DNA of 12,772 nt from an uncultured Actinoplanes sp. (GTDB taxonomy: Bacteria; Actinomycetota; Actinomycetes; Mycobacteriales; Micromonosporaceae): contig CAKUMG010000073.1 of the NCBI GenBank assembly GCA_934667465.1, positions 1 through 12,772 on the forward strand, written 5' to 3'. Numbering within the stretch: position 1 is the stretch's first letter; each line of letters opens with the position of its first letter. Shown piece by piece: positions 1 to 12,772 of the stretch. The notes below the pieces were generated by a model. The model worked only from the letters and a program-made list of their open reading frames with translations, made no database searches and was not told the origin of the DNA. The translations under genes and the position numbers were made by a program.

Positions 1-989
1 GCCCTGCAGCATCTCGGGCGATAGGTGCTGCACCGAGGGGTAGCCGTAGTCGGCCGCGAGCTCCTGCGCGTAGGCGCGGTTCAGGTTCGTGCTGAGCTGG
101 CCGAACTCGGCCGCGCCGTCGCCGAACCGGACGTCCGGGTTGCCGCGGACGAGCAGGCCGTCGACGAAGAGGTTCGGCTCGGGGGCGTACGGGAGCAGGG
201 GGTGGATCTGCCGCTGCCGGTCGCGGGTCTGCATGTCGTCGCTGATCGCCGCGGAGAAGTCGGCCACGAACCGGGCCCGGTTGCCGGGATCGTTCAGCCG
301 GGCGATCGCCTCCCGCAGCTTCTTGCGCTCGGGCGAGCTGGACGACGTGGCGAGCGCCTTCTCCAGCCGGTGCCGGGTGTCGGCGACCAGCCGGTCGGGG
401 TCACCGATGCGGTAGCCGCCGGACAGCATGAGCGGCCGGTTGGGGTCGTTGCCGCGCCCGTCGGTCATCGCCCCGAGCTGGTCGAAGATGTGCCGGCCCG
501 ACGGGGTGGTGCGGGCGCCGCTGTCGAAGTCCTGGAAGGACACGTACGGGTAGGTGTCGCCCGCGGCGAGGGCCTGCACGGCGGCCGCGGTCTCGGGGCT
601 GCCCAGGACGGCGTTGCGGCCGCGGCCGTACATGAACGCGCCGGTCGAGCTGTTCGTGCCCACGGCGTGCCCCGTGACGGCGATTGGCACATCCATCGTG
701 GCGGCGAGCTGCACCGCCTGGCCGACCGCGTTCCGGAGCTCGCTGCCCGGCTTCGAGCCCGCGGTGTTGACGCCGACCACGAACGCGACCCGGGTGTCCG
801 GGTCCAGCCCGGCGGTGATCGAGCGGAGCACCCGCGGCAGGTTCCCGACGTCGCTCGCGGGGACCATCACGTTGACCACGAACGCCATCGGGGCGTTGTC
901 GCGGATCAGCCGGTCCCGGGTCTGCTGGTAGGAGCCGGGGGTGACGTTGAGCTGCCGGCTGATCAACCGGTCGAACGCCGCGTTGTGGC
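1..989 (-). other. GT-A glycosyltransferase-like domain, copy 2 (cut by window edge)
   Basis: Residues 2409 onward. It matches copy 1 along its length: MAFVVNVMVPAS, RVAFVVGVNT, RNAVL, YPYVSFQDFDSG (D2561-F-D2563), TTPSGRHIFDQ, DDMQTRDRQ and IHPLLPYAPEPNLFVDGL. The DxD of copy 2 is exactly 936 residues from that of copy 1. The rest of the domain lies left of position 1. Confidence 0.45.
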
Positions 990-3900
990 CGCCGGGGACG
1001 CTCGGCGGGGGTGCGGGCCGGGTGGCGTCGAGGTTGTGGTCGACGGGGGTGTTGTTGTCGGTCAGCTCCGTCCGGGCGACCGCGGCGACCTGGTCGAGGT
1101 GGCGCTGCTGGAGTTCGGGGGTGCTGTCGGTCATCAGCGAGTTGCCCTGGTGGACGTTCGCCGAGTTTTCGGTCTTGTTGAAGACGCGCAGGCCGTCGAC
1201 GTATTCGTCGCGCAGGCCGAGGTAGTGCCCGATCTCGTGGGCGAAATCGTTGTCGGAGCCCTGCGTGGACCAGTTCGTCTGATCGGTCGGCGGCGCGTCG
1301 GCGCCGTAGAGCTTGACGTCGGCGTGGGCGTCGGCGGGGTCGGTGACGAATTCGACGTGGACGTTGAGCTTGTCGTTGCCGATCTGGTGGCCGCCGTTGA
1401 AGGCGAGGTTGACGGCGTTCTGGACGCGGTTGCGGACGTCGGCTTCCTGGTTGCGGGCCGTGTCGTCCTGCGGGTTGAGGTGGACCTTGACGGTGAAGTC
1501 TTGGACGCCGTCAAACGCTCTGTGGTCGTAGGCGATCGGGCCGTCGTAGTGGTCCAGGTTGATGCGCGGCCGGTCGGTGACCGGGGCGTCCAGGCCGGCC
1601 TCGGCGTAGGAGCGGGCGACGACGTCGGGGACGCCGTGCGCGATCGGGGCGCGTTCGATGACGTCGTAGGCGCTGGTGTTGGCGTGGCGCGGGGGCGTGG
1701 CGGCGCGCTGGTTCGCGTACGGGTCGGTGGGGGTGCTGGTGTTGGGCGCGGGGGCGGGGTTCGTGGACCGCGGGGCCGGCATCGTCGACGTGAACGGTGT
1801 GTAGTTGACCCGCTTGTTGCTGTCCAGGCCCTGCGTCACGTGCACCGTCCGGGTCGCGCCCGGCGCCCGGAAGGTCTGCTCGCCGCGCGAGTCGTGCACC
1901 ACGATGTTCACACCGAGCGCGTGCGCGGCCACGTCCGTGACGACGTCGTGCGCGGCCCGGCTCTGCTGCTGCTCCCGGACGTCGTCGACGCCCGGCTCCG
2001 GGGTGTGACGGAACGTGAACGGGCGGGGCGGGGCGATGGCGGCCGTGACGAAGTGACCACCGTCGTACGGGTTGTCGGTCCGCCGGTGCGCCATCTGCTC
2101 CAGCAGGGGCCCGTCCGCCCGGCGGCCCGTGTCCAGCGTCTGGCGGCGGATCTGGGCGGCGGAGATCCCGGTCTGCTGCTGCAGCGCGCCGTACAGCGAG
2201 TCCGGCCGGATGTTGATCTGGCTCTGCGGGAGGCCGTCACGGGCCTCGTGCCGGCCGTTGGCGACGACCGCCTGGCTGTTCGTGAAGTCCTGGCGGACCG
2301 TGTTGGCGGTGTTCGACAGCGCCAGCTGGTGGGCCGCGTAGAGCTTCTGGTCCGGGGAGAGGCCGATCGCCGTGCCGGTGCCGGGGACACCCAGCGAGAT
2401 CGACGGGTTGAGCGTGTTCTTCGCGGCGCCGCCGAGCTGCTTGCGCTGCTCCTTGCTGAGCTGGTCCGTCCAGGAGGTGTTCTGCGACCCGGGCGCCGGC
2501 TGGCGGACCGGTTTCACGTACGCGTTCGGGGTCGACGAGTTCGCCACCGCGTACGGCGACAGCCCGATGCCGGCCTTGGCCGCCTTGGCACCCTTCGGCC
2601 CGCCCCGCCGGGGGTTGCCGGGGTCGTAGCCGAAGAACCGGTCCGGCACCGTGGACAGGTTCGTGTGGGTCTGGGGCAGCGTCTTGCCCAGGATCAGGTC
2701 GGCGGCGAGCCGGGACAGGTCCGTGGAGACCGCCGCGCCGGTGTAGTCGACCAGGAAGGCCTGACCGCGCACCTCGTGCCGGTTGTTCTCCGCATCCGTC
2801 TTGATGTCGCCGTTCAGGATGTCCGCCGGCACCTGGCTGAGCGACTCGTACCCGGCGTCCACGGCGAGCTCGGACGCGTACGCCCGGTTCAGGCTCTCGC
2901 CGAGCTGGTTGAACTCCGCACCGCCGGGGCCGAAGCGGACGTTGTCGTCGGCGCGGGTGACGAGGCCGTCGATGAACAGGTTGGGCTCGGGGGCGTACGG
3001 CAGCAGCGGGTGGATCTCCGCCTGCCGGTCCCGGGTCTGCATGTCGTCCGTGACGGCCCGGTTGAACCTGTCCACGAACTCGGCAGCGGTGCCCGGATCG
3101 TCCAGCGCGGCGATCGCGTTGCCGATCTTCTGCAGCTGGCCGGGGTCGTCGGTCTTCGCCAGCTCCCCCTCGAGCCGGGTCCGGGTGTCGGCGACCAGCT
3201 GCGCCGGGTCGCCGGCCCGGTAGCCGCCGGCCAGCATCAGCGGACGGGCCGGGGCGTCGTCCTCGACCGCGGTGTTCTGCTGCATCTGGTCGAAGACATG
3301 GATGCCGGACGGCGTCGTCCGAATGCCGGTGTCGAAGTCCTGGATTGCGACGTACGGGTAACGCCGCTGAGCGGGATCCTGGTGCGACGCCATGGCGTCG
3401 ATGGCCGAGGTGGTCGCGTCCGAGGTCAGCACGGCGTTGCGGGCGTCGCCGAACTGGAACTTGCCGCTGGACAGGGGAACGAGGTGCCCGGTGACCGCCA
3501 CCGGGAAGTCCAGGTTCTGCGTCGACTGGACCGCCTGGTCGACGGTCTGCTGCAGGGTGGGCGTGGCGTTGCCGTCCGTGGTGTTGAAGCCGACCACGAA
3601 GGCCACCTTCGTGTCCGGGTCCAGGCCCGCCCGGATCGAGTTCAGCACCTGCGGCAGCTGGCCGGCCTCGCTCGCCTTCGCGGTGATGTTGACGACGAAG
3701 CCCATGTCGTTGCCGTCGTTGACCAGCTGGTCCCGCGCCGCGAAGAAATTGTCCGCGGTGATCGGCGTCCTGTTCTGCACCAGGCTCTGGAAGGCCGGGT
3801 TGTGGCCGCTCCGGACCAGCGTCGGCGCCGGGCGGGAGCCGAGCGAGCCCGGATCGCGTTCCGGGCGCGTGACCGGGTTCGGCGCGGCGTCGCCGCGGTC

Positions 3901-6900
3901 GGGCGGCAGCACGGCGTCGGTGACCTGGCTGATCTGGTCGACGTGGCCGAGGGTGACCTGCGAACCGCCGGCCATCAGCGAGTCCGGGCCGTCCGGCGCG
4001 CGGCTCAGCACCCGGTTGTCCCGGCCCTCGTCGGGCAGGCCCAGGTAGTGGCCGATCTCGTGGGCCAGCGTGGTGCCGGGCGTGTCCGTCGACCACTCCG
4101 TCTGAGTGGTGCGCGGCGCATCCTGGCCGAACAGGTCGATGGTGGTGTGCGCGGCCGCCGGGTCGGTGACGAACTCGACGGTGACGTTCAGCCCCGGACC
4201 CTGGTTGAAGGCCTGATTCACCGCGTCCCGGGTCCGCGTCTCGACCTCGGGCTGCCGGGCCCGTGCGGCATCGTCCCTCGGGTTCAGGTGGACGCGGACC
4301 GTGTACTCCGGCCGGCCGTTCCGGACCTCGTGGTCGAACCCGATGTGCCCGTCGATGCGGCCCAGATTCGGCCGGGGCGCATCGGTCGCCGGTGGCGGCA
4401 GCCCCGCATCCTGGTACGACGCGGTCACCACGTCCGGCACACCGCCCGCCACCGGCGGTAGCTCCACGACGTCCACCGAGGTGGCGAACGCGGTGGCCCC
4501 GAACGCCGTGTTCGTGGCGGCCGGCGGCGCGGTGACCTGCACCCCACCCGGCACGAACGTCGGCATGAAGTGGGAGACCTTGAGCTGGTCGGGCCCCGGC
4601 AGGACGGCCAGCTCACCGCTCTGCCCGTCCACGAACACCACGTGCCCCGAAGGCAGCTTCACGACGTTGAACAGGTGTCCATGGTTCGCAAACTCCACGG
4701 CCACCACGCCGCGCGACCCCGGCGGCAGCGCATCGACCGTGCGCACCAGGTCGGGCAGCGCGCCCGCGGTGCTGAACCGGCCGCCCATTCGCTGCTCGAG
4801 CGTCTTCAGATCCGGGATCTTCCCGCTCTTCGGCGCGGTCCGCCCCGGCTTGCCGGCCAGCATGTCGTCGACGATCTGCACCGTGATGTGGCAGTTCTCG
4901 TCCAACAGCCCGAGCTTGTTCGGGTTGATCTCCTTGAGGCCCGGGAAGAGATCGTTGAGGACGGTCGCCTGGTCCGGGCGGGTGTCCGGGTCCGGGTTGG
5001 CATTGGCCGCAATGATCTTGGGCATGTCGGGGCTCGGCGTGAACGACACATGATCCAGAAGCGCGATCCGGGCCGCGACGATCTGATCGTTCGGCGCGTT
5101 CTGCTGTTGCAGATCCAACAGATTTTCGCTGTACGCCGAAGGCTTGGGCGCCGGAGCATCCGTCATCTCGGTGTCGAGCTCGGTGCTCGTGTTGCTGTCG
5201 CGGGTGTCGTCGGCCGTGCTCTCCGGTGTCGGCGGTGCCTCCGTGGCGGTGCTGCTCTCCGGCGCCGGCGGTGCGTCCGCCATCTCGGTGTCGAGGTCGG
5301 TGCTGGTGTTGTCGTTCTGGCTCGTGCCGGTGTCGGTGTCCGTGCCGGTGTTGTTCGGGCCCGTGCCGGTGTTGTTCTCCGGGCTCGTGGTGGTGTCCGT
5401 CGGCGCATCCGTCATCGTGACGTCGGGCGAGCCGTACGCCGTGGTGGTCTGCGGGGCCGGCGTCGCGTCCGTGCCGGGCCGCGTGTCCGGGCTCGGCTGC
5501 GTTGCGGGTGCGGGTTCCGCGGCGACCGGGACGTTGTCGCGTGTGGAGTCCAGCGGGATGCCGGTGTCGGAGCTCGTGTCGGTGTCGGAGCCGACCGGGG
5601 AAACCGCGGAGTCGCCGAGATCGACGCTGAAGTCGGATCCTGTCGCCGGCGCCACGTCGGAGGTCGCCGGGGGGACCACGGTGCTCAGCGGCGGAAGGTC
5701 GCCCGACGAGGCGCGGCCGCTGGTCGGGCCCTGACTACCCGCAGGAGTCGTCGGCGATTCCGGGGACCGCGCGGGCCCCGCCTGCTGCCCGGCAGGAGCC
5801 GGCGTGTTGGCGGTCGTCGCCCCCGGCGCAGGCCCAGCCGCACCCGTCGTCGGCGCAACCGCGCCCGGCGCCGGCGCAGTCACGCCCGGCGCCGGTGCAA
5901 CCGCGTCCGGCGTCGGCGTCACCGTCCCCGTTGTCGGCGCGACCGTCCCCGTTGCCGGGGCGGTTGTGCCAGGCGCCGGCGCGGTCGCGCTCGGCGTCGT
6001 GCCGGTCGGGGGTGCAGTGTCCGAGGCCGTGCCCGTTTGAGGCACTGCGATCGGCGTCGTGCCGGTCGGGGGCACCGCGGTCGGCGTTGCGCCGGGCCGG
6101 GTGGTGCCGTCGGCGGGCACATCGACGTTCTGGCCGGCCGGAATGTCGACAGCAGCCGGGACGGTCCCCGCCTGAACGGGGGCGGGCGGAGCCGTGACGG
6201 TGTTCGGCGCCGGGGTCTGCGCGCCGTCCGGCACCTGAACGTTGCCTGCCACCGGGGCCGGCGGTGCCTGAGGCACGTTGACCGGCGTGGGGGCGGGCGC
6301 GGGCGCAGGAGCGGCTTGCGGTGCCGGCGTCTGTCCCGTCTGCGGCGCCGGCGTCTGTCCCGGCTGTGGTGCGGGCGTCTGCCCAGCCTGCGGTGCCGGG
6401 GTCTGCCCCGTCTGCGGCGCCGGCGTCTGTCCCGTTTGTGGTGCGGGGTTCTGGCCGGCCTGTGGTGCCGGGGTTTGCGCCTCGACCGGCGCCGGCGTCT
6501 GTCCGGTCTGCGGTGCCGGTGTCTGTCCGGTCTGTGGCGCGGGCGTCTGTCCGGTCTGTGGCGCTGGTGTCTGTGCCTCGACCGGCGCCGGGGTCTGTCC
6601 GGTTTGGGGCGCCGGGGTCTGTCCGGTCTGGGGTGCTGGTGTCTGGCCCGCCTGCGGTGCTGGGGTCTGCACCTCGACCGGGGCCGGGGACGTGGTCTCG
6701 AAGCCCGGCAGGCCCGATCCGACGGACGCGACGGGCGGGGCCACCGGCGCGGGCGTGTTCCCGCCCACCGGCGCGGGTGTGTTTCCGCCGAGCGGCGCAG
6801 GGGTGTTTCCACCCACGGGCGCGGGCGTGTTCCCGCCGAGCGGCGCGGGCGTGTTCCCGCCCACCGGCGCAGGAGTGTTTCCGCCCACGGGCGCTGGCAC

Positions 6901-8211
6901 GTTCCCACCCACAGGCGCGGGCGTGTTTCCACCCACGGGCGCAGGAGTGTTTCCGCCCACGGGGGCGGGCACGTTCCCGCCCACCGGTGCAGGCGTGTTT
7001 CCGCCCACGGGCGCTGGCACGTTCCCGCCGAGCGGCGCAGGAGTGTTTCCTCCCACCGGCGCAGGAGTGTTTCCTCCCACCGGTGCGGGCACGTTTCCGC
7101 CGGCCGGGGCGGGTCCGCCTGCCGGGCCCGGGCCGCGGGTCTCGTTGAGCGGCGGCGTTTCGCTGTAGGGCGGCGGCGAGCCGCTCGGGGGCGGCGGAGT
7201 CGCGGCGGCGCCCGGGGGCGTTTCGCTGTAGGGCGGCGGAGGGCTGCCGGCCGGTGGGGGCGGGCCGGTCACCGAGGTCGGGGGCGGCTGGTTCTTGAGG
7301 TCGTCGTAGCTCGGCGGCGGTGGCAGGTTGCCGGCGTCCGACCCGGGGCCGTACGAGTGGCCGAACTTGTCGGCCCCCTGCTGGGCCATGCCGCCGATGA
7401 TGGACGACGACATGGTGGCGAGGGGGTTGAAGTCGCCGCCGATCATCATCATGAAGAGGCCCTCGAAGAGGGTCTCCGCGAGTGCCGACAGGATTTCCTG
7501 GGCGATGATGCTGTTGCCGAGTTTGGGATAGAACTTGCCCGCGATCTGGTGGACGCCGGAGACGCCCGCGCCGATGAAGAGACCGCCGGCGAAGGAGAGC
7601 GCCAGGTCCTCGTAGTCGATCTCGGTGCGGTTGCCCTCGGCGACCTGGGCGAGCTGCGCGGCGAGGCCCTGCCAGACCTCCTCGAGGCCCTCCTGGATGC
7701 CCTCGAACATCATCCGCATGAGCATGTTGCGCAGGCGCATCTGCAGGAAGTCGATGAGCTGCTGGACGATCTGCCGGCCGATGGTGATCAGCGCGGGCAC
7801 CGCCGCCGCGCCGAAGCCCGAGGCCATGGCGATCGCGATCTCGACGACCTGGGTGAAGGCCGCGATCACGATGTTGTACTGGGTGGACTCCGAGTCGAGC
7901 GCGAATTCGTACGCCGCGCCGCCCAGCGCGTTCGAGATGTTCGCGCCGTCGGGCACGTACTGGGTGATCTGGCCCTGGTATTGACTGAAGGCCTGTGCCG
8001 CCGGGCCTTCCAGGCTTCCGGAGAGCACCCCGCCCAGGCCTGCCGTGGCCGACATGCCGTTGAGCAGCTGGCTGCTGAAGTTGTAGAGCTCGTCGCCCAT
8101 GGCGCGCAGCGCCGTCGGGTCGGCCTCCGGGAACTGCTCGCCGGTGGTGTAGAGGATGGCGTCGTACGCCCACTGCCACTCGGGGTCGTTGGGTATGTGG
8201 AAGTCAGGCAT
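1..8211 (-). CDS. Giant multidomain T7SS polymorphic toxin-like protein (partial, C-terminus beyond window)
   Basis: At least 2737 residues, open without any stop to the left edge. The start is well defined: an in-frame TGA lies at 8224-8226 and the ATG at 8209-8211 is the first start codon after it. No Shine-Dalgarno is visible, so translation is probably coupled to the upstream gene, whose stop is 20 bases away. Order seen: WXG100-like/CpnT-like helical domain (about 1-285); proline-rich PPxY segment (290-350); 15 x 8 GGN repeats (367-486); 15 x 8 PAPQTGQT repeats (509-628); Pro/Thr-rich linker (to about 810); acidic Ser/Thr/Asp linker (to about 1030); Tox-PL-like papain fold (about 1060-1228); zincin 1 (about 1257-1450); GT-A-like 1 (about 1470-1858); OTU-like (about 1960-2140); zincin 2 (about 2193-2400); GT-A-like 2 (from about 2409). 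Known family logic: such N-terminal domains direct export by T7SS, and the C-terminal enzymes act in a target cell or on the cell surface. Cys1107 is the only cysteine. Export and toxicity are inferred. Confidence 0.93.
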   Translation of the reverse strand, partial: MPDFHIPNDPEWQWAYDAILYTTGEQFPEADPTALRAMGDELYNFSSQLLNGMSATAGLGGVLSGSLEGPAAQAFSQYQGQITQYVPDGANISNALGGAAYEFALDSESTQYNIVIAAFTQVVEIAIAMASGFGAAAVPALITIGRQIVQQLIDFLQMRLRNMLMRMMFEGIQEGLEEVWQGLAAQLAQVAEGNRTEIDYEDLALSFAGGLFIGAGVSGVHQIAGKFYPKLGNSIIAQEILSALAETLFEGLFMMMIGGDFNPLATMSSSIIGGMAQQGADKFGHSYGPGSDAGNLPPPPSYDDLKNQPPPTSVTGPPPPAGSPPPPYSETPPGAAATPPPPSGSPPPYSETPPLNETRGPGPAGGPAPAGGNVPAPVGGNTPAPVGGNTPAPLGGNVPAPVGGNTPAPVGGNVPAPVGGNTPAPVGGNTPAPVGGNVPAPVGGNTPAPVGGNTPAPLGGNTPAPVGGNTPAPLGGNTPAPVGGNTPAPVAPPVASVGSGLPGFETTSPAPVEVQTPAPQAGQTPAPQTGQTPAPQTGQTPAPVEAQTPAPQTGQTPAPQTGQTPAPQTGQTPAPVEAQTPAPQAGQNPAPQTGQTPAPQTGQTPAPQAGQTPAPQPGQTPAPQTGQTPAPQAAPAPAPAPTPVNVPQAPPAPVAGNVQVPDGAQTPAPNTVTAPPAPVQAGTVPAAVDIPAGQNVDVPADGTTRPGATPTAVPPTGTTPIAVPQTGTASDTAPPTGTTPSATAPAPGTTAPATGTVAPTTGTVTPTPDAVAPAPGVTAPAPGAVAPTTGAAGPAPGATTANTPAPAGQQAGPARSPESPTTPAGSQGPTSGRASSGDLPPLSTVVPPATSDVAPATGSDFSVDLGDSAVSPVGSDTDTSSDTGIPLDSTRDNVPVAAEPAPATQPSPDTRPGTDATPAPQTTTAYGSPDVTMTDAPTDTTTSPENNTGTGPNNTGTDTDTGTSQNDNTSTDLDTEMADAPPAPESSTATEAPPTPESTADDTRDSNTSTELDTEMTDAPAPKPSAYSENLLDLQQQNAPNDQIVAARIALLDHVSFTPSPDMPKIIAANANPDPDTRPDQATVLNDLFPGLKEINPNKLGLLDENCHITVQIVDDMLAGKPGRTAPKSGKIPDLKTLEQRMGGRFSTAGALPDLVRTVDALPPGSRGVVAVEFANHGHLFNVVKLPSGHVVFVDGQSGELAVLPGPDQLKVSHFMPTFVPGGVQVTAPPAATNTAFGATAFATSVDVVELPPVAGGVPDVVTASYQDAGLPPPATDAPRPNLGRIDGHIGFDHEVRNGRPEYTVRVHLNPRDDAARARQPEVETRTRDAVNQAFNQGPGLNVTVEFVTDPAAAHTTIDLFGQDAPRTTQTEWSTDTPGTTLAHEIGHYLGLPDEGRDNRVLSRAPDGPDSLMAGGSQVTLGHVDQISQVTDAVLPPDRGDAAPNPVTRPERDPGSLGSRPAPTLVRSGHNPAFQSLVQNRTPITADNFFAARDQLVNDGNDMGFVVNITAKASEAGQLPQVLNSIRAGLDPDTKVAFVVGFNTTDGNATPTLQQTVDQAVQSTQNLDFPVAVTGHLVPLSSGKFQFGDARNAVLTSDATTSAIDAMASHQDPAQRRYPYVAIQDFDTGIRTTPSGIHVFDQMQQNTAVEDDAPARPLMLAGGYRAGDPAQLVADTRTRLEGELAKTDDPGQLQKIGNAIAALDDPGTAAEFVDRFNRAVTDDMQTRDRQAEIHPLLPYAPEPNLFIDGLVTRADDNVRFGPGGAEFNQLGESLNRAYASELAVDAGYESLSQVPADILNGDIKTDAENNRHEVRGQAFLVDYTGAAVSTDLSRLAADLILGKTLPQTHTNLSTVPDRFFGYDPGNPRRGGPKGAKAAKAGIGLSPYAVANSSTPNAYVKPVRQPAPGSQNTSWTDQLSKEQRKQLGGAAKNTLNPSISLGVPGTGTAIGLSPDQKLYAAHQLALSNTANTVRQDFTNSQAVVANGRHEARDGLPQSQINIRPDSLYGALQQQTGISAAQIRRQTLDTGRRADGPLLEQMAHRRTDNPYDGGHFVTAAIAPPRPFTFRHTPEPGVDDVREQQQSRAAHDVVTDVAAHALGVNIVVHDSRGEQTFRAPGATRTVHVTQGLDSNKRVNYTPFTSTMPAPRSTNPAPAPNTSTPTDPYANQRAATPPRHANTSAYDVIERAPIAHGVPDVVARSYAEAGLDAPVTDRPRINLDHYDGPIAYDHRAFDGVQDFTVKVHLNPQDDTARNQEADVRNRVQNAVNLAFNGGHQIGNDKLNVHVEFVTDPADAHADVKLYGADAPPTDQTNWSTQGSDNDFAHEIGHYLGLRDEYVDGLRVFNKTENSANVHQGNSLMTDSTPELQQRHLDQVAAVARTELTDNNTPVDHNLDATRPAPPPSVPGGHNAAFDRLISRQLNVTPGSYQQTRDRLIRDNAPMAFVVNVMVPASDVGNLPRVLRSITAGLDPDTRVAFVVGVNTAGSKPGSELRNAVGQAVQLAATMDVPIAVTGHAVGTNSSTGAFMYGRGRNAVLGSPETAAAVQALAAGDTYPYVSFQDFDSGARTTPSGRHIFDQLGAMTDGRGNDPNRPLMLSGGYRIGDPDRLVADTRHRLEKALATSSSSPERKKLREAIARLNDPGNRARFVADFSAAISDDMQTRDRQRQIHPLLPYAPEPNLFVDGLLVRGNPDVRFGDGAAEFGQLSTNLNRAYAQELAADYGYPSVQHLSPEMLQG
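1012..1638 (-). other. Zincin (metzincin-like) metalloprotease domain, copy 2
   Basis: Residues about 2193-2400. HEIGHYLGLRD gives His2325, Glu2326, His2329, Gly2332 and Asp2335, with a Met-turn candidate NSLMTDS (Met2360). It opens, like copy 1, with GVPDVV and a Ser-Tyr-x-x-Ala-Gly-Leu segment. All ligands are conserved, so both copies look functional. Confidence 0.75.
1792..2334 (-). other. OTU-like fold, probably catalytically degenerate
   Basis: Residues about 1960-2140. RPDSLYGAL resembles the OTU catalytic-helix motif (DCLFxAL) but has Ser2005 where Cys is expected. It ends in AAHALGVNIVVHD, then VHVTQ and VNYTPF, resembling the OTU late strands, with Asn in place of the usual His of HYxP. 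Both expected catalytic residues seem absent, so it may be a binding module or a Ser variant. Similarity is judged by eye. Confidence 0.38.
2638..3806 (-). other. GT-A glycosyltransferase-like domain, copy 1
   Basis: Residues about 1470-1858. Seen: MGFVVNITAKAS followed by a helix and KVAFVVGFNT (resembling the two first strands of a GT2/GT-A fold), an RNAVL segment, then YPYVAIQDFDTG with D1625-F-D1627 as a DxD metal/nucleotide-sugar motif. TTPSGIHVFDQ follows, and later IHPLLPYAPEPNLFIDGL. The order of strands and the DxD are what suggest a glycosyltransferase. No named family is recognised, so this is a fold-level inference. Confidence 0.42.
3862..4446 (-). other. Zincin (metzincin-like) metalloprotease domain, copy 1
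   Basis: Residues about 1257-1450. HEIGHYLGLPD gives His1384, Glu1385, His1388, Gly1391 and Asp1394, fitting HExxHxxGxxD. A Met-turn candidate (DSLMAGG, Met1413) lies 29 residues after the first His. Upstream beta-rich sequence (YTVRVHLNP ... NVTVEFVTDP) fits the zincin N-terminal sheet. Asp takes the third-ligand place, as in a subset of metzincins. All predicted zinc ligands are present. Confidence 0.75.
4530..5034 (-). other. Papain-fold Tox-PL-like domain (glutamine deamidase/protease type)
   Basis: Residues about 1060-1228. A Leu-Phe-Pro-Gly-Leu-x-x-Ile-Asn-Pro segment leads into DENCHITVQ with Cys1107, then a Gly-rich linker, NHGHLFNVV with His1179, and VFVDGQSG with Asp1195. This Cys / GHxFNVV / VDGQ series is the signature of the Tox-PL papain-like toxin domains (Pfam 'papain fold toxin 1, glutamine deamidase'). 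The triad is complete, so an active thiol enzyme is plausible. Substrate unknown; deamidase versus protease cannot be decided from sequence. Confidence 0.72.
5152..5310 (-). repeat. Duplicated acidic linker motif NTST[DE]LDTEM[AT]DAP
   Basis: Two copies of a 14-residue motif lie 117 bases (39 residues) apart, at about 5269-5310 and 5152-5193. The surrounding linker is rich in Asp, Ser, Thr and Glu and immediately precedes the papain-fold domain. It is a flexible acidic hinge between the repeat stalk and the enzymatic half; no function can be assigned. Confidence 0.8.
5800..6105 (-). repeat. Degenerate Pro/Thr/Gly-rich repeats (PTGTTP, APTTGTV, APAPGAV)
   Basis: About 100 residues of the giant protein made of imperfect 8-11 residue motifs such as PPTGTTPIAVP, APTTGTV and APAPGAV. 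This looks like an older, diverged continuation of the two regular 24-bp arrays. It is low-complexity linker with no sign of a folded domain. Confidence 0.75.
6328..6687 (-). repeat. Tandem 24-bp array, 15 units encoding PAPQTGQT / PAPVEAQT
   Basis: Fifteen 24-bp units encode residues 509-628, followed by a partial unit (PAPQAA). The consensus is PAPQTGQT. Units 1, 5 and 9 instead carry Val-Glu (PAPVEVQT or PAPVEAQT), with the Glu codon at 6673, 6577 and 6481. They are exactly 96 bases apart, so a four-unit higher-order repeat is embedded in the array. A 22-residue non-repeat linker separates it from the GGN array. Confidence 0.95.
6754..7113 (-). repeat. Tandem 24-bp array, 15 units encoding PAP[VLA]GGN[TV]
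   Basis: Fifteen contiguous 24-bp units, counted from the in-frame Asn codon recurring every 24 bases from 6757 to 7093. They encode residues 367-486 of the giant protein. Units vary mostly at two places: Val/Leu/Ala before GGN and Thr/Val after it. The nucleotide units are near-identical, which favours slippage and length variation between strains. Structure is probably an extended, polyproline-II-like spacer. Confidence 0.95.
7357..8211 (-). other. N-terminal WXG100-like (CpnT-N-type) trafficking domain of the giant protein
   Basis: Residues about 1-285. An opening of the type DPEWQWAY is followed by helices rich in Ala, Gln and Leu, with a Gly-Leu-Gly-Gly turn near residue 70. A long amphipathic or hydrophobic stretch follows (Ile/Ala-rich, about residues 115-160), then Met/Leu-rich helices. 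This matches the helical N-terminal modules that open large actinobacterial T7SS toxins such as CpnT. Assignment is by overall pattern, not by alignment. Hydrophobic segments near residues 120-150 and 205-260 could pack against a WXG100 partner or enter a membrane. Confidence 0.6.
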
Positions 8212-8231: not shown

Positions 8232-9647
8232 TCAGATCAGCGGGGTGGGCGTGCCGTCCGCCGAGTAGGAGAGGACCAGCGGCTGGTAACCGGGCGCGGT
8301 GGGGTCGACGGCGGGGTTGTCCTTGACCACGAAGAACTGCCGGTCGCCGGGGTTGAGGACCTGGCCGTCCGGGGTGGTGACCGGCGTGCCGGCGAGCGGG
8401 GTCACCGACTCGTAGAGGTTGGCGTCGACGCGGGTGTTGCCGTCCTCGAACGGGTTGAGCGCCTGCAGGCGGTAGCCCTCCGGCAGCGGCTCCCCGCCGA
8501 CGTAGGCGGTCGAGTACTCCGGCGCGGACATGTACGAGGAGATGGCCGGCATCGCCGGGGTCATGGCCGCGAAGCTGGACGTCGGCTGGAGGGGGAGTGC
8601 CGCTTCCCGGGCGATCATCGGCTCACCCAGGAGCGCGGGCTGGATCCGGGCCACCGATTCGGTCGGTTCCAGGGGCATCATCGGCTCGGCCTTGAGTGCG
8701 GGTTGGACCCGGGCCACCGTTTCGACCGGTTCGGTCACCTCGCCCGGGGTGATCAGCTCACCCTGGGCAAGCACGCCGCGCTGCATCGGCATTGTGCCCT
8801 GGGTCGGCTCGAGCGGCGTCAGCAATTCGCCCTGGACGCGAACCCCCTGTTTCATCGGCAGGAGAGGGGTGAGCGGCTCACGCTCCGTGAGGACACCTTG
8901 CTCCAGCGGGAGCAAACCGCGGGTGGGCTCGAGAGCATCCATCCGCTTGCTCGCCATGAAGACCCGCGGGCTCTCGCCCTCGACGGCCGGATCCTCGTCC
9001 CGGCCGACGACGGCGCCTCGGCGCAGCTCACCGGCCATCATCGGCTGGAGCGGCGTCCGGCCCTGGACGCGCTCGCCGACCACCATGCTCTTGGTCGCCG
9101 TGAAGCCCTCCTGGCCGTCACCCTCGCCCTCGGGATTCTCGCCGGGGTTGTAGGTCATGCCCTTCACCCGCATGGCAGGCTGGAGCATCGCCGGCTGCTC
9201 GCTGGTGTAGGCGGGCAGCAGCGGCTCCTTGGCGGTGATCTCGCCGCTTACGAAGGCCGGCTGCTCCTTGGCGAGCATGGCACGGCGGGCGAGCGGCTGG
9301 CCGGACAGGTTCTCGTCGAAGTCGCGCGCCATCTTCTCGCCGGCTTCCCGGGCGCCCTCGTCGACGTCGCGGTACATCTGGCCGCTCGCGCGCAGCCCCT
9401 CGGCGACGTAGTTGAGGGTGCCCTTGACGCCGCCGACCAGCGAGTCGAGGTTGTCGAGCCCCTTCAGGAACTTCTCCGAGAACGCCTTGCCCATGTCGTC
9501 GTCGCCCCAGGCCTTGCCGTAGCGATCACGGAGCGAGGCGAGCTGCGTCACGTACTGCTCGTAGAGCTCGACCTGTTGGGCGTATGCCTCGCCGGTGGCG
9601 ATGACGCCTTCCGGGTTGACCCAGAGGCGGCCGGTGGGGAGGCTCAT
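8232..9647 (-). CDS. EspC/WXG100-type T7SS protein with long repetitive C-terminal tail
   Basis: 471 residues. The first ~115 form a helical hairpin of EspC/WXG100 type: VNPEG near the N-terminus, a turn AWGDDDMGKAF (Trp47-Gly48), and YRDVD at residues 92-96, which fits the YxxxD/E T7SS export signal. Residues ~120-365 are an unusual tail with imperfect repeats (LEPT, QGVL/QPAL, GELLTP). A compact C-terminal part follows (LNPFEDGNTRV ... DGQVLNPGDRQFFVVKDNP) that looks folded and beta-rich. The start overlaps the stop of the YbaB-like gene as ATGA (9644-9647), and its own stop lies 20 bases before the giant gene, so the three are an operon with coupled translation. Likely role, by position: secretion partner or chaperone of the giant effector. 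Contains no cysteine. The tail is not a recognised domain. Confidence 0.9.
   Translation of the reverse strand: MSLPTGRLWVNPEGVIATGEAYAQQVELYEQYVTQLASLRDRYGKAWGDDDMGKAFSEKFLKGLDNLDSLVGGVKGTLNYVAEGLRASGQMYRDVDEGAREAGEKMARDFDENLSGQPLARRAMLAKEQPAFVSGEITAKEPLLPAYTSEQPAMLQPAMRVKGMTYNPGENPEGEGDGQEGFTATKSMVVGERVQGRTPLQPMMAGELRRGAVVGRDEDPAVEGESPRVFMASKRMDALEPTRGLLPLEQGVLTEREPLTPLLPMKQGVRVQGELLTPLEPTQGTMPMQRGVLAQGELITPGEVTEPVETVARVQPALKAEPMMPLEPTESVARIQPALLGEPMIAREAALPLQPTSSFAAMTPAMPAISSYMSAPEYSTAYVGGEPLPEGYRLQALNPFEDGNTRVDANLYESVTPLAGTPVTTPDGQVLNPGDRQFFVVKDNPAVDPTAPGYQPLVLSYSADGTPTPLI
8553..9059 (-). repeat. Imperfect Pro/Gln/Glu repeats in the tail of the EspC-like protein
   Basis: Residues about 197-365. 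Recurring cores are LEPT or LQPT (residues 239, 279, 327, 353) and LEQGVL, MKQGVR, MQRGVL, VQPALK, IQPALL, often followed by GE-L-(I/L)-TP. Spacing is irregular (about 17-48 residues), so these are degenerate protein repeats, not a fresh DNA tandem array. Confidence 0.75.
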
Positions 9648-10060
9648 CGCTGCGCCCGGCCCTGGTTGAGCATCTCGCGGACGCTGGTGACCATGCGCGG
9701 CTGCTCCGGCAGAAACGCGTCGGCTCCGGCGGTGCCCCGGACCAGCGCCTGGGCGTCCATGCCGTCCGGGAGCATCGGGGCGAGGGTGGCGGCGGCCTGC
9801 TGCATCACGTCCTCCTTCGCCTCGGCGTACGTCGTCATGATCAGTTCTGTGAGGTCGGCCGGGGTGAGCCGCTTGTGCGCACCGGTCGGGAACTTGATGT
9901 CCGTCATGACACCGTTCTGACCGACTGTGATCGTTACCTCACGGCGTGGCGAGGTGGCGGTGGCCGTCAGGGCGCGCATCTTGCCCTGCAGGTCGCTGAG
10001 GCTGTTGCGCTGCTTCTGGTAGTCCTCGAACAAGCTCTCGATGCGATCGCTGAAGTTCAT
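9644..10060 (-). CDS. YbaB/EbfC-family protein
   Basis: 138 residues from the ATG at 10058-10060. This start is chosen because AAGGAGG (10069-10075) sits 8 bases upstream; an in-frame GTG at 10078 would overlap that site and is unlikely. Features: an N-terminal helix with Glu/Gln/Lys/Leu pattern (residues 5-35), a beta segment REVTITVGQNGVMTDIKF typical of the YbaB fold, then a helix beginning with LTPADL. The family includes nucleoid-associated DNA-binding proteins. In actinomycete T7SS toxin loci such genes commonly precede an EspC/WXG100 gene, where the function is unclear. The C-terminal ~45 residues are longer than the E. coli YbaB core. First gene of the leftward operon, with a 4-base ATGA overlap to the next. 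Confidence 0.85.
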   Translation of the reverse strand: MNFSDRIESLFEDYQKQRNSLSDLQGKMRALTATATSPRREVTITVGQNGVMTDIKFPTGAHKRLTPADLTELIMTTYAEAKEDVMQQAAATLAPMLPDGMDAQALVRGTAGADAFLPEQPRMVTSVREMLNQGRAQR

Positions 10061-10068
10061 CCGCCCCG

Positions 10069-10075
10069 CCTCCTT
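10069..10075 (-). promoter_or_regulatory. Strong ribosome binding site AAGGAGG
   Basis: Perfect anti-16S match on the minus strand, 8 bases before the ATG at 10060. It decides the start of the YbaB-like gene and appears to be the only good ribosome binding site of the leftward operon. Confidence 0.85.
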
Positions 10076-10281
10076 CACGTCGATTGATCAGTGAAGACGT
10101 TCCGGGGTCCGCACGCTAGACCCTCCGGCTTTCCGGGGCATAAACGTGCAGCGAATTTTCCCCATGGCCGCCCTCGCCGAGGGCCGCGGAGGCGGGCGGA
10201 CGGGCGAGGCCGTGCACTCTTGGCCCGACTTTCGGACATCCGATGCGGTTCGGGTTGCCCTTCACCTACCGGTTTCATCAA

Positions 10282-10324
10282 GACTCTTCACTGCCCGCGG
10301 CGGACGACTCTTCTCTGCCGGGCG
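10282..10324 (+). repeat. Imperfect direct repeat upstream of the esx pair
   Basis: GACTCTTCACTGCCCGCGG (10282-10300) recurs 24 bases later as GACTCTTCTCTGCCGGGCGG (10306-10325). The first ten to twelve bases are near-identical. It lies about 60-105 bases before the first WXG100 start, in a position suitable for a regulator-binding site or 5' leader. Function is inferred from position only. Confidence 0.55.
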
Positions 10325-10373
10325 GCACGCGACAACGCCGGACGGCATCAACCGAGCCGACGGCACCCGACGT

Positions 10374-10379
10374 GAGGAG
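10374..10379 (+). promoter_or_regulatory. Ribosome binding site deciding the GTG start
   Basis: GAGGAG lies 7 bases before GTG 10387 and 13 before ATG 10393; the spacing favours the GTG, adding two residues (Met-Thr) to the protein. Confidence 0.6.
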
Positions 10380-10386
10380 CACGGCT

Positions 10387-10707
10387 GTGACCATGCCGAC
10401 CGTTCAAACCAGTGAAGAGGGCATGCAGCGTGCTGCCCAGGAGTTCTCCAACAAGGCGCAGGAGTTCACCGGCCAGCTGCAGGCCGTGAACACGCAGATG
10501 GGCACCCTGCAGTCCTCCTGGACCGGCCAGGCGTCGGCCGGCTTCAACCAGGCGATGGACAGCTGGGAGGCGGCCTTCCAGAAGGTCATCACCGAGCTCA
10601 TCAACATGCTCGACGTGATGGGCGTGACCACCAAGGGTTACACCGCGGCCGAGGACGAGGCTGCCAGCACCGCCGCCTCCTTCGGTGCGGCTCTTCCGGG
10701 CATCTGA
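10387..10707 (+). CDS. WXG100 family protein (EsxA/EsxB-like), first of a pair
   Basis: 106 residues from the GTG at 10387. GAGGAG (10374-10379) is 7 bases upstream, so GTG is preferred to the in-frame ATG at 10393 (13 bases away). The WXG motif is Trp45-Thr-Gly47 in the turn between two helices (QSSWTGQASAGF), and Tyr85-TAA-Glu89 gives a YxxxE export signal. The size is typical of the ~100-residue family. Such proteins form antiparallel four-helix dimers exported by T7SS. The second WXG100 gene 92 bases downstream is the likely partner. The long upstream extension in the same frame is not coding. No cysteine. Confidence 0.92.
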   Translation: MTMPTVQTSEEGMQRAAQEFSNKAQEFTGQLQAVNTQMGTLQSSWTGQASAGFNQAMDSWEAAFQKVITELINMLDVMGVTTKGYTAAEDEAASTAASFGAALPGI

Positions 10708-10799: not shown

Positions 10800-11102
10800 G
10801 TGTCGAACTACGCGTTCAACTTCCAGCAGGCCGACGCCGTGCTGCACGACATGAACCGGATCAACGGTCAGATCAAGTCGGGTCTGGCCGAGATGGAGCG
10901 GACCGTCGAGACCAGCCTCCAGGACTGGACCGGTGCGGCGCAGCAGCAGTACTACGTCTCGAAGGCCGCCTGGAACAACTCGGCGAACCAGATGACCGTC
11001 TACCTGGACCAGGCCCGGATCACCCTGCTGCAGATCTCGGACAACTACGGCACCACCGAGTCGCGTCACGCGCAGATCTGGAACGACGTCCGCGGCGGCT
11101 GA
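10800..11102 (+). CDS. WXG100 family protein (EsxA/EsxB-like), second of a pair
   Basis: 100 residues from GTG 10800, with AAAGGA (10789-10794) 5 bases upstream. The helix-turn-helix hairpin carries Trp43-Thr-Gly45 (LQDWTGAAQQQYY). Tyr83-GTT-Glu87 fits the YxxxE signal near the C-terminus. This is a standard WXG100 length and layout, and it forms a probable heterodimer with the preceding gene. Both partners carry a YxxxE, whereas in the best-studied mycobacterial pairs the signal sits on one partner. No cysteine. The 92-base gap to the upstream gene has no evident terminator, so co-transcription is likely. Confidence 0.92.
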   Translation: MSNYAFNFQQADAVLHDMNRINGQIKSGLAEMERTVETSLQDWTGAAQQQYYVSKAAWNNSANQMTVYLDQARITLLQISDNYGTTESRHAQIWNDVRGG

Positions 11103-11110
11103 TTCCCGTC

Positions 11111-11150
11111 GGCCGGCTGCCGTGTCCCTGGTGACGCGGTGGCCGGCTGC
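11111..11150 (+). repeat. 10-bp direct repeat GGCCGGCTGC, 30-bp period
   Basis: GGCCGGCTGC occurs at 11111-11120 and again at 11141-11150, just after the second WXG100 stop. The core GGCCGG is itself palindromic. It is short, so it could be chance in GC-rich DNA. Confidence 0.4.
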
Positions 11151-11174
11151 TCTGTGTTTCCGTTCCCCGGCTCG

Positions 11175-11224
11175 GCGGTCCTGACCGCTGGTCGTGGGTT
11201 ACCCGGCGCCTCGAGGCTGCCGGG
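11175..11224 (+). terminator. Two adjacent stem-loops after the esx pair (possible attenuator or processing site)
   Basis: GCGGTC-CT-GACCGC (11175-11188) is followed by a stronger hairpin at 11202-11224: CCCGGC and GCC pairing with GGC and GCCGGG, a TCGA loop and one bulged T. There is no U-tract, which is common for actinobacterial terminators but also leaves the role open. Placed between the esx pair and the next gene, it could reduce read-through or stabilise the esx transcript. This is inference. Confidence 0.4.
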
Positions 11225-11258
11225 CGTCACTGTTTCACGACCCGGCTTGGAGGACGTC

Positions 11259-12095
11259 ATGGCAATTAACTGGGATCATGTGAGCATCGAGGCCGTCGAC
11301 CAGATGGGCCTTCTCGACCAGTGGGAGAAGGACCACGGCGAGTCGGACGGCTTCGTCAAGACCGTCGTCGACAAGATCTACGCCGACATCAGGTCGAACA
11401 GCAACACGACGCACAAGGAAGACACCGGCGGCGGCTTCGACCGCGGTGACTACGACGCCGACGAGCTCGCCGCGTGGGACATGTACTCCGAGAAGTACAA
11501 GAACATGGCCTACCCCGAGTGGAAGAAGCTGGTCGACCAGCACCGGGCTGACGAGGCCAGCCAGGACATCGAGTACGACGATCCGTCGACCTTCGAGTCG
11601 CCGACGAACGGCGAGAACGAGACGCTCTGGCCGCCCAAGAACCTGACCCTCAACGAGGGCACGTTCAACGGCAGCGGCCACACGAACAACGAGATGGTCG
11701 TCAGCACCGAGGCGATCCAGCACCTCATCACGGCGTTCGGGCAGATCGCCAAGGGGGAGCACGAGGGCGAGCTGCTCACGCTGGCGACCGAGCTGGACGG
11801 CCGGCACATCAAGCCGGGTGGCTTCGCCCGGGCGGAGCTGCTCCGCCGGAAAATCGACGGCACGGGCGACGCGGACCCCGGCCTGCGCGGCGACACCATC
11901 GGCCTGCTCCGTACCCTGCACCGGGCGCTCTACGAGGTGAAAGAGGGCCTCGTGGAGATGAAGAAGGAGTACGAGAAGACCGAGGAAGACAACACGGTCA
12001 CGCAGCAGCAGCTGCAGGAGCACATGGCGGAGGCCTGGAGCCAGGTCAACGGGCTCGGCAACTACGGCACGCGCGGCGGCAGCTCCGAGTCCTGA
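11259..12095 (+). CDS. Acidic T7SS-associated protein with predicted C-terminal helical hairpin, unknown function
   Basis: 278 residues from ATG 11259, with GGAGG (11249-11253) 5 bases upstream. The open frame extends further upstream but has no ribosome site there. The N-terminal ~130 residues are acidic, Trp/Tyr-containing and hydrophilic (for example DYDADELAAWDMYSEKY). Residues ~150-265 form helices (STEAIQHLITAFGQIAKG ... LLRTLHRALYEVKEGLVEMKK) with Tyr-EKT-Glu fitting YxxxE, then a Gly/Ser-rich tail. The C-terminal half recalls EspC/WXG100-type hairpins, but no WXG motif is present and no family is recognised. Position between WXG100 genes suggests a secreted substrate or accessory factor. 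No signal peptide or membrane segment. No cysteine. Confidence 0.85.
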   Translation: MAINWDHVSIEAVDQMGLLDQWEKDHGESDGFVKTVVDKIYADIRSNSNTTHKEDTGGGFDRGDYDADELAAWDMYSEKYKNMAYPEWKKLVDQHRADEASQDIEYDDPSTFESPTNGENETLWPPKNLTLNEGTFNGSGHTNNEMVVSTEAIQHLITAFGQIAKGEHEGELLTLATELDGRHIKPGGFARAELLRRKIDGTGDADPGLRGDTIGLLRTLHRALYEVKEGLVEMKKEYEKTEEDNTVTQQQLQEHMAEAWSQVNGLGNYGTRGGSSES

Positions 12096-12148: not shown

Positions 12149-12772
12149 ATGGCTGAATGGACAAGCGACGTCGAGAAGCCCGCGACGTTCATGCCATCCA
12201 CAGTCGATTATCAGAACGAGCTCGACTATGAGGCCTGGAAGAACGAGGACCGGGGCTGGCGCAAGCTGGAGGCCTCTCTCCGCGGTGGCTCCGCGCTGGA
12301 TACGGCGGAAGGTGTGGCGCATGCCGCGACCCTCGTCAGCCCGCAGTCGCTGGTGGACTCGGCGCAGACCTTCCACAAGATCCGGGACGCGCTGTTCTGG
12401 CTGGACGGCTTCATCCGGGCCCAGGTGCATGCCGTCGCCGGCAAGGACCGGCCCTGGCAGGGAAAGGCCGCCGACGCCTTCATCTCCAAGATGGACCTGC
12501 TCGCCGACTACGTGAAGCGCAACGGCGAGCGCATCAACGGCGGCGAGACGACCGGCCCGGCCTCGGTGCCCGACGCGCTTTATCGCAGCGCCCACTACCT
12601 GAAGTGGGGCCAGGAGCAGATCTACCACCTCGACGTCTCGTGGGCAGCCATCGCCCGGGAGAACGGCGTCGGTTCCGGCAGCGGGCCGGTGCCGATCAGC
12701 GGCACGAAGTTCGAGAAGCCGATGGCTGAGCAGATGGCCCAGGTCGTCGGCACGGTGGCGACCGAGTACGTC
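12149..12772 (+). CDS. WXG-domain T7SS-associated protein (partial, continues beyond window)
   Basis: 208 residues are visible from ATG 12149, with GAAGGAG (12135-12141) 7 bases upstream; the frame is open to the edge. A ~60-residue N-terminal lead is followed by a helical hairpin with Trp103-Gln-Gly105 and Phe111 (RPWQGKAADAFISKM), a WXG-type turn. More helical sequence (YLKWGQEQIYHLDVSWAAI) and a Gly/Ser/Pro hinge (GSGSGPVP) come before a further segment. It is longer than a simple WXG100 protein, so it is probably an effector or a substrate with an N-terminal T7SS-recognised domain. The 53-base gap after the previous stop, with a good ribosome site, suggests the same operon. Its C-terminal function lies outside the window. 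No cysteine in the visible part. Confidence 0.85.
   Translation, partial: MAEWTSDVEKPATFMPSTVDYQNELDYEAWKNEDRGWRKLEASLRGGSALDTAEGVAHAATLVSPQSLVDSAQTFHKIRDALFWLDGFIRAQVHAVAGKDRPWQGKAADAFISKMDLLADYVKRNGERINGGETTGPASVPDALYRSAHYLKWGQEQIYHLDVSWAAIARENGVGSGSGPVPISGTKFEKPMAEQMAQVVGTVATEYV

Follow-up and report, generated by a model that had tools for sequence, protein, structure and literature searches.

Classical polymorphic toxins carry one C-terminal warhead. What, then, is a protein that strings several predicted enzymes along a single chain, and what might it do? The question arises from a 12,772-nucleotide stretch of DNA from an uncultured Actinoplanes species (assembly GCA_934667465.1, contig CAKUMG010000073.1), which we call the window. 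On its minus strand, a single open frame of 2737 codons reads from position 8211 to position 1 and runs off the edge, encoding a protein of at least 2737 residues, here called the giant. The initial annotation interpreted this protein as a type VII secretion system (T7SS) effector in which six modules, i.e., a Tox-PL domain, two zincins, two glycosyltransferase (GT)-like domains, and an OTU-like domain, form either a multi-warhead weapon or a processing machine. The module calls are supported by Pfam, by motifs, and by AlphaFold2, and the modules do lie in series. They comprise one Tox-PL domain and two copies of a zincin–GT–OTU triplet, with the window stopping within copy 2; relatives possess up to four triplets and thousands more residues. 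We give slightly better than an even chance to the reading, drawn from sequence, that the window encodes about the first third of a T7SS-exported, giant, multi-module effector of the polymorphic-toxin type equipped with such cassettes.

A triplet duplicated within one open frame

There is very little doubt about the anatomy of the giant. Its parts run head–stalk–T–Z–G–O–Z–G, where T denotes the Tox-PL/Gln_amidase domain, Z the zincin, G the GT-A-fold domain, and O the OTU-fold domain, and the last G is cut by the window edge. When the protein is compared with itself, residues 1241-1430 align with 2177-2378 at 48% identity and residues 1477-1801 with 2416-2737 at 53% identity; the OTU-like stretch 1871-2160 sits between the duplicated zincin and GT segments. 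Pfam places zincin matches at two sites. The head scores 32.6 bits against the WXG100_2 cut-off of 27, and the same kind of head occurs in six related loci (L002, L003, L004, L043, L063, and L080). The proposed stalk is found as a low-complexity stretch at residues 291-1059 (window 5035-7341), and it contains short repeats, nearly identical to one another, of the GGNTPAPV and GQTPAPQT types. T matches PF15644 at 42.5 bits (cut-off 24.1) and is 61% identical to its copy in the closest relative, Winogradskya consettensis. Motifs place Cys-His-Asp candidates at residues 1107, 1179, and 1195, which we take to be catalytic. A phmmer search of the whole protein against PDB sequences returned only weak matches to the low-complexity stalk, and a tblastn search with the first G domain found no match in 72,556 plasmid records.

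The single frame, as first annotated, is not split into several genes. We reject an assembly or frame artefact because relatives keep the same modules in the same order in unbroken frames, one of them within a 9.38-Mb contig. Plus-strand frames of 1478 and 1232 amino acids over the giant are taken to be shadows of high guanine–cytosine (GC) content; all homology found is to the minus strand, in searches that did not take in the plus-strand frames.

The G domain is a predicted glycosyltransferase of a GT-A-fold family common to T7SS-type proteins and proteins of extracellular contractile injection systems (eCISs). Its AlphaFold2 model (predicted local distance difference test score, pLDDT, 93.5) adopts the GT-A fold with Foldseek and VIA-align matches, as the initial annotation had foreseen, and both Asp columns of the DxD motif are invariant in all 47 aligned rows. 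G has no useful Pfam match, and a G profile run against PDB sequences gave three weak unrelated matches only (E 0.2 or worse). The TcdB-type Tox-Glycosyltransferase (PF04488) of T7SS and Photorhabdus virulence cassette (PVC) toxins is likewise a GT-A-type toxin domain with a DxD motif in secreted actinobacterial toxins. However, PF04488 matches none of seven G domains at E up to 5, a search in which HMMER filters drop most matches above about 0.1. The nearest solved folds are instead other glycosyltransferases, including wall-teichoic-acid and polysaccharide glycosyltransferases.

The O domain adopts the OTU fold in its AlphaFold2 model, with fold matches, again as anticipated. It shares this fold with the OTU deubiquitinases (PF02338) and differs from them by loss of the catalytic Cys in 63 of 69 matched copies, including that of the window, where Ser occupies the position and the His is absent. 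Across the 69 copies, Cys is retained in 6, His in 11, and both in 6. Elsewhere, G is followed by OTU domains that bear the Cys; O is homologous to these, one of which exceeds the Pfam cut-off (P0024), and eCIS loci contain related G domains followed by OTUs that retain Cys and His. Judged by these residues, the O domain has become a pseudo-enzyme in the lineage of the window and so is no warhead in the OTU sense.

We also asked how zincins are distributed relative to OTU loss. Among G copies with determinable states, Z adjoins 44/51 with a pseudo-OTU, 4/24 without an OTU, and 0/6 that keep the Cys; 8 of 89 copies are left out because the sequence is cut on the upstream side in 5 (4 pseudo, 1 lacking an OTU) and on the downstream side in 3, and one row scored as pseudo, L049_2171, is apparently a weak false O match. 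We do not claim that zincin presence is coupled to OTU loss: the G tree (65 rows after a redundancy cut) gives 5 independent pairs on supported branches, with a median sign-test p of 0.5.

The Z domain retains HExxH in all 61 copies and the longer HExxHxxGxx[DE] in 59. A Met, a candidate for the metzincin Met-turn, is conserved downstream of the zinc motif in at least 90% of 21 Z rows. Both window copies carry Asp in the HExxHxxGxxD position, presumably the third ligand as in snapalysin-like M7 metzincins. Z shares that motif, and possibly the downstream conserved Met, with the M7 enzymes, but it is a repeated internal domain of a giant rather than a small secreted protease, and PF02031 exceeds its cut-off only as a sum across the W. 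consettensis copies (25.5 of 25). G follows within 250 residues in 49 of the 61 copies. Intervals of 900-958 residues between Z copies recur in W. consettensis (L001) and in L017, where one interval is 1,604 and Z mostly does not precede G. Where G does not follow, Z heads other stretches; Actinoplanes sp. NPDC051859, for instance, has four Z copies (at 881, 1784, 2436, and 3439), with a Pfam aldo/keto reductase domain, placed by eye, after the second. Because Z occupies a header position, and also lies just before the C-terminal G–O in Lentzea-type proteins, we favor a role in which the zincins cut the chain into cassettes.

Arrays and C-termini in relatives

Relatives were collected by protein search and by scanning one genome per species (66 loci), after which module profiles were placed on the loci. 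Thirteen relatives, 1,697 to 4,729 amino acids long, came from the protein search; some are partial, and all are actinobacterial where named. W. consettensis, 62% identical to the window in G, encodes T-(Z-G-O)x4-Z within a frame at least 8,836 amino acids long whose 5' end is cut by the contig, with Z copies spaced 911, 932, 935, and 939 residues apart. Its units 2-4 are 77-85% identical to one another and 54-56% to unit 1. The window's unit 1 is nearest W. consettensis unit 1 (58%) and its unit 2 is nearest units 2-4 (68-69%), and the G tree agrees. To judge from these identities and the tree, the split between copy 1 and the later copies probably predates that of the two species, and the later copies kept multiplying or being homogenized. 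The ratio of nonsynonymous to synonymous substitution (dN/dS) among W. consettensis units 2-4 is 0.20-0.34, alike in Z, G, and O, as estimated by a simple counting method at high GC. Such repeats may also break assemblies; the genes of the window and of W. consettensis both run off the sequence.

A complete counterpart comes from the window's own family. Genome G130 encodes T-(Z-G-O)x2-Z-...-Z in a complete 7,146-residue frame within the 9.38-Mb contig, and the gene cluster of the window is found at its head. Fifteen of 200 genomes drawn from that family have a G match, 11 strong (E below 1e-100) and four partial; at most eight candidates per genome were scored, and the draw included the already known G001, G002, G003, G006, and G009. 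Beyond the array, the W. consettensis and G130 proteins are 53-56% identical, and both end in an ADP-ribosyltransferase (ART)-like domain that falls just under Pfam cut-offs (20.8 of 23.4; 21.1 of 22.3), with R, STS, and ExE motifs readable by eye. We expect the window protein to continue likewise after its array, up to an ART-like end. As a side observation on L079:1269-19499, a stretch near the G130 C-terminus, which takes in part of the ART-like region, has two matches to the W. consettensis C-terminus; this C-terminal cassette may be duplicated too.

Elsewhere, the triplet itself closes the protein. In 17 of the 66 loci (15 Lentzea, one Nocardia-named, and one Saccharothrix metagenome-assembled genome), the last Z-G-O is the C-terminus, and O ends at most 20 residues from the stop. 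This arrangement puts G–O in the classical toxin place and Z in the classical processing place. An Imm35 immunity gene (L070:5888-6208) lies right downstream of the Micromonospora tulbaghiae giant; none of three other downstream genes of relatives that were scanned has a Pfam family. A gene of 344 or 353 amino acids, alike by eye, follows the L067 and L079 giants, with a 188-residue gene next in L067, and similar-looking genes, these three without a Pfam family, follow the giants in L074, L071, and L077.

Pfam searches of stretches between Z copies (four from L017, two from L067, and one from P0002) had no match better than E 0.01 apart from ART and Abhydrolase_8, each under its cut-off, and stretches of L002 and L068 had no match. 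Thus, most other modules of these giants remain without a family name. Other arrangements were seen in passing. Actinoplanes palleronii (L045, L073-L074) has G, then Z-T-Z-G-T-Z-G-T in a 9,596-residue frame, the same modules shuffled. The 11,945-residue open frame of Actinosynnema pretiosum (L035, L075, L076) and the frame of at least 11,434 residues of Winogradskya humida (L007, L077, L078) are mostly without modules recognized by the profiles.

The same predicted glycosyltransferase family in contractile injection systems

Two protein searches returned 54 G proteins, mostly shorter (418-1354 amino acids), a few of which coincide with the loci. Eleven of the 54 possess an eCIS_core domain. 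In all 11, an HExxH motif precedes G, and in 6 an OTU Cys motif follows it; by the same simple pattern, the OTU motif follows G in 13 of the 54 overall. Thus, the zincin-then-GT order recurs in a second delivery system. Specifically, G lies after eCIS_core in proteins of Trinickia and Oscillatoria, and the Trinickia gene is near Pvc16_N and sheath genes. In Methylibium, the G gene sits between the tape-measure gene of a contractile injection system and an eCIS_core gene, and its product has a Cys-bearing OTU and no eCIS_core of its own. The G family likely has an injected-cargo role in eCISs, to judge from these architectures, which by analogy supports an effector role for the giants.

The 11 proteins belong with the eCIS-associated DUF4157/eCIS_core toxins (PMC8213781, 2021; PMC11297309, 2024) in carrying an HExxH domain, then the same G family, with the OTU Cys motif next in 6. 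They differ from the giants in delivery by a contractile syringe, in size (806-994 amino acids in the 11 cases), in using another zincin family, and in bearing a single cassette rather than an array. The main text of neither paper contains the words “glycosyltransferase” or “OTU.”

Two sets of G proteins were also noted. Aeromonas hydrophila, A. schubertii, A. dhakensis, and A. bestiarum (P0049, P0051, P0052, P0061) encode hypothetical proteins of 849-864 amino acids in which G lies near the C-terminus and Pfam shows no eCIS_core. G proteins P0043 and P0056 are recorded from Mycetohabitans rhizoxinica and under the fungal name Apophysomyces. M. rhizoxinica is a fungus-dwelling bacterium, and the Apophysomyces protein may come from a bacterial resident.

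Proposed action, rival explanations, and gene context

How could such a protein work? Two Esx-type proteins and a YbaB/WXG gene pair beside the giant support export by a T7SS. The stalk would reach the target cell. Each zincin would serve as the header of its cassette and cleave the chain, whether in itself or in the target, freeing GT–pseudo-OTU pieces. The GT would attach a sugar to a target protein while the pseudo-OTU would dock this enzyme onto its substrate, and tandem amplification of the triplet would raise the dose or yield small target variants. On the identity of the target cells the indications lean two ways: OTU ancestry to eukaryotes (e.g., amoebae), the one Imm35 gene beside a relative to rival bacteria.

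That the zincins are warheads rather than processing enzymes is quite possible, though short of an even chance. Each triplet would then inject a protease and a glycosyltransferase that both act on target proteins, and the giant would stay uncut or be cut by host proteases. The near-universal metzincin motif is expected under either role, and several zincin clades were predicted to be purely toxic in the pertinent passages of Zhang 2012 (PMC3482391). The regular spacing of Z in W. consettensis and L017, even where G mostly does not follow, argues for headers instead, and Z is not C-terminal, where those passages of the 2012 survey put toxin-type peptidases. Improbable, in our judgment, is the proposal that the ART-like C-terminus is the only toxin and that the Z-G-O array serves as an enlarged stalk or as a scaffold for trafficking, its enzymes being vestigial. 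Such a layout would be the classical one, and both close relatives read to their ends do have an ART-like C-terminus; against it, Z and G retain their catalytic motifs, recent copies show low dN/dS, Z-G-O itself is C-terminal in those 17 loci, and G follows eCIS_core in 11 proteins. A shade more improbable still is the idea that the giant is no effector but an enzyme, secreted or exposed at the surface, with which the producer glycosylates or trims its own envelope or a developmental surface. Actinobacterial T7SSs do serve development in some species, and the nearest solved folds of G include the wall-teichoic-acid and polysaccharide glycosyltransferases noted above; Tox-PL and ART-like domains in the chain or in close relatives, and the sharing of G with eCIS cargo, speak against it.

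Several points also weigh against the exported, self-processing effector that we prefer. Export, cleavage, and toxicity of the giant are predictions from sequence, and the zincins could themselves be weapons. Twelve of 61 Z copies lack a G within 250 residues (one because its locus ends), and some G copies lack a Z. Shared ancestry explains the association of zincins with pseudo-OTUs equally well. Against W. consettensis unit 1, dN/dS is 0.43-0.66 by the same simple method at high GC, indicating much weaker constraint. The giant's own C-terminus lies beyond the window, and the T7SS core ATPase is absent among the seven window proteins scanned. On the eCIS side, 43 of 54 G proteins are without eCIS_core, and none of three Oscillatoria neighbors scanned is an eCIS gene.

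We entertain, as a rather unlikely elaboration of the exported-effector reading, a self-dividing, multi-dose payload. The notion is that in one T7SS export the polyprotein's own zincins would cut it into several GT–pseudo-OTU units, nearly identical to one another, plus Tox-PL and ART-like units; the GT–OTU pair would be an old injected module moved between eCISs and T7SSs, whose OTU lost catalysis in the T7SS line and became a substrate-docking part when the zincin took over cutting. MARTX-type multifunctional toxins carry several effector domains on a single chain and have proteolysis built in. The likeness holds if the processing idea is right, and the giant differs by its T7SS head, its repeated near-identical cassettes, and its one protease per cassette.

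The initial annotation contrasted several enzymes in series with the single toxin domain at the end of most polymorphic toxins; the giant multi-domain toxin is itself a known kind. The passages of the 2012 survey devoted to such proteins describe gigantic actinobacterial toxins of up to 13,652 amino acids, e.g., SACTE_5178, with several toxin and peptidase domains in series, ART, OTU, and metallopeptidase among them; OTU domains of possible processing roles in T7SS toxins; arrays of caspase-like domains; and a PVC/eCIS metallopeptidase as processing enzyme (PMC3482391). SACTE_5178 combines an ALF-like metallopeptidase, caspase, ART, and MCF1-SHE, in contrast to the tandem triplet reported here, and the GT family is absent from that account. 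Neither the tandem triplet nor this GT family turned up in searches of the open-access literature, subscription papers being outside the scope. New, then, are the amplified triplet, a GT family apparently common to T7SS-type and eCIS proteins, and an OTU apparently turned pseudo-enzyme. Instead of the single warhead of classical toxins, one gene here holds an entire cassette of three domains in tandem copies. The G family is a testable candidate protein-modifying enzyme in two delivery systems, linking type VII giants with contractile-injection cargo, and paired OTU domains with and without the catalytic Cys form a natural series on the role of the OTU fold once cutting is lost.

The T7SS-type setting proposed in the initial annotation is borne out by the WXG100_2 head, two Esx-type genes, and a conserved cluster (Table 1).

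Table 1. Coordinates of the giant, its parts, and its neighbors in the window
Feature	Position	Strand	Evidence or remark
Giant T7SS-type effector-like gene	1..8211	-	at least 2737 aa, 3' end beyond window; open frame, homologues
N-terminal head, residues 1-290	7342..8211	-	WXG100_2 at 6-149, then hydrophobic stretch; Pfam
Stalk, P/T/A/G/Q/N-rich, low-complexity	5035..7341	-	composition
T: Tox-PL/Gln_amidase papain-fold, residues 1060-1240	4492..5034	-	Pfam PF15644, 1.6e-10
G1: GT-A-fold glycosyltransferase-like domain	2602..3816	-	AlphaFold2, Foldseek, VIA-align; invariant DxD at residue 1625
O: predicted OTU-fold pseudo-enzyme	1732..2601	-	AlphaFold2, fold matches, alignment; Ser at Cys position (residue 2005), no His near 2136
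G2: second GT-A-like domain, cut by window edge	1..999	-	53% identity to G1; DxD at residue 2561
WXG100-like partner gene, directly upstream of giant	8232..9647	-	WXG100 15.3 bits, under cut-off 27.3; neighbor conserved
YbaB/EbfC-family gene, operon head	9644..10078	-	Pfam PF02575, 2.6e-12; conserved
Esx-type WXG100 protein	10243..10707	+	TIGR03930 66.9 bits, cut-off 44.85
Second Esx-type WXG100 protein	10800..11102	+	TIGR03930 46.1 bits, cut-off 44.85
Conserved cluster protein, no family	11139..12095	+	Pfam scan, conservation
Conserved cluster protein, cut by window edge	12149..12772	+	weak WXG100: TIGR03930 16.2 bits, under cut-off

The YbaB and WXG100-like genes precede the giant, and the two Esx-type and two conserved genes diverge from them. 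In the stretch examined from Saccharopolyspora (L063), only the YbaB and WXG genes accompany the giant. Next to the head of the giant, L002, L004, L043, and G130 have all six cluster genes, and L003, with a stretch that ends early, has five of them.
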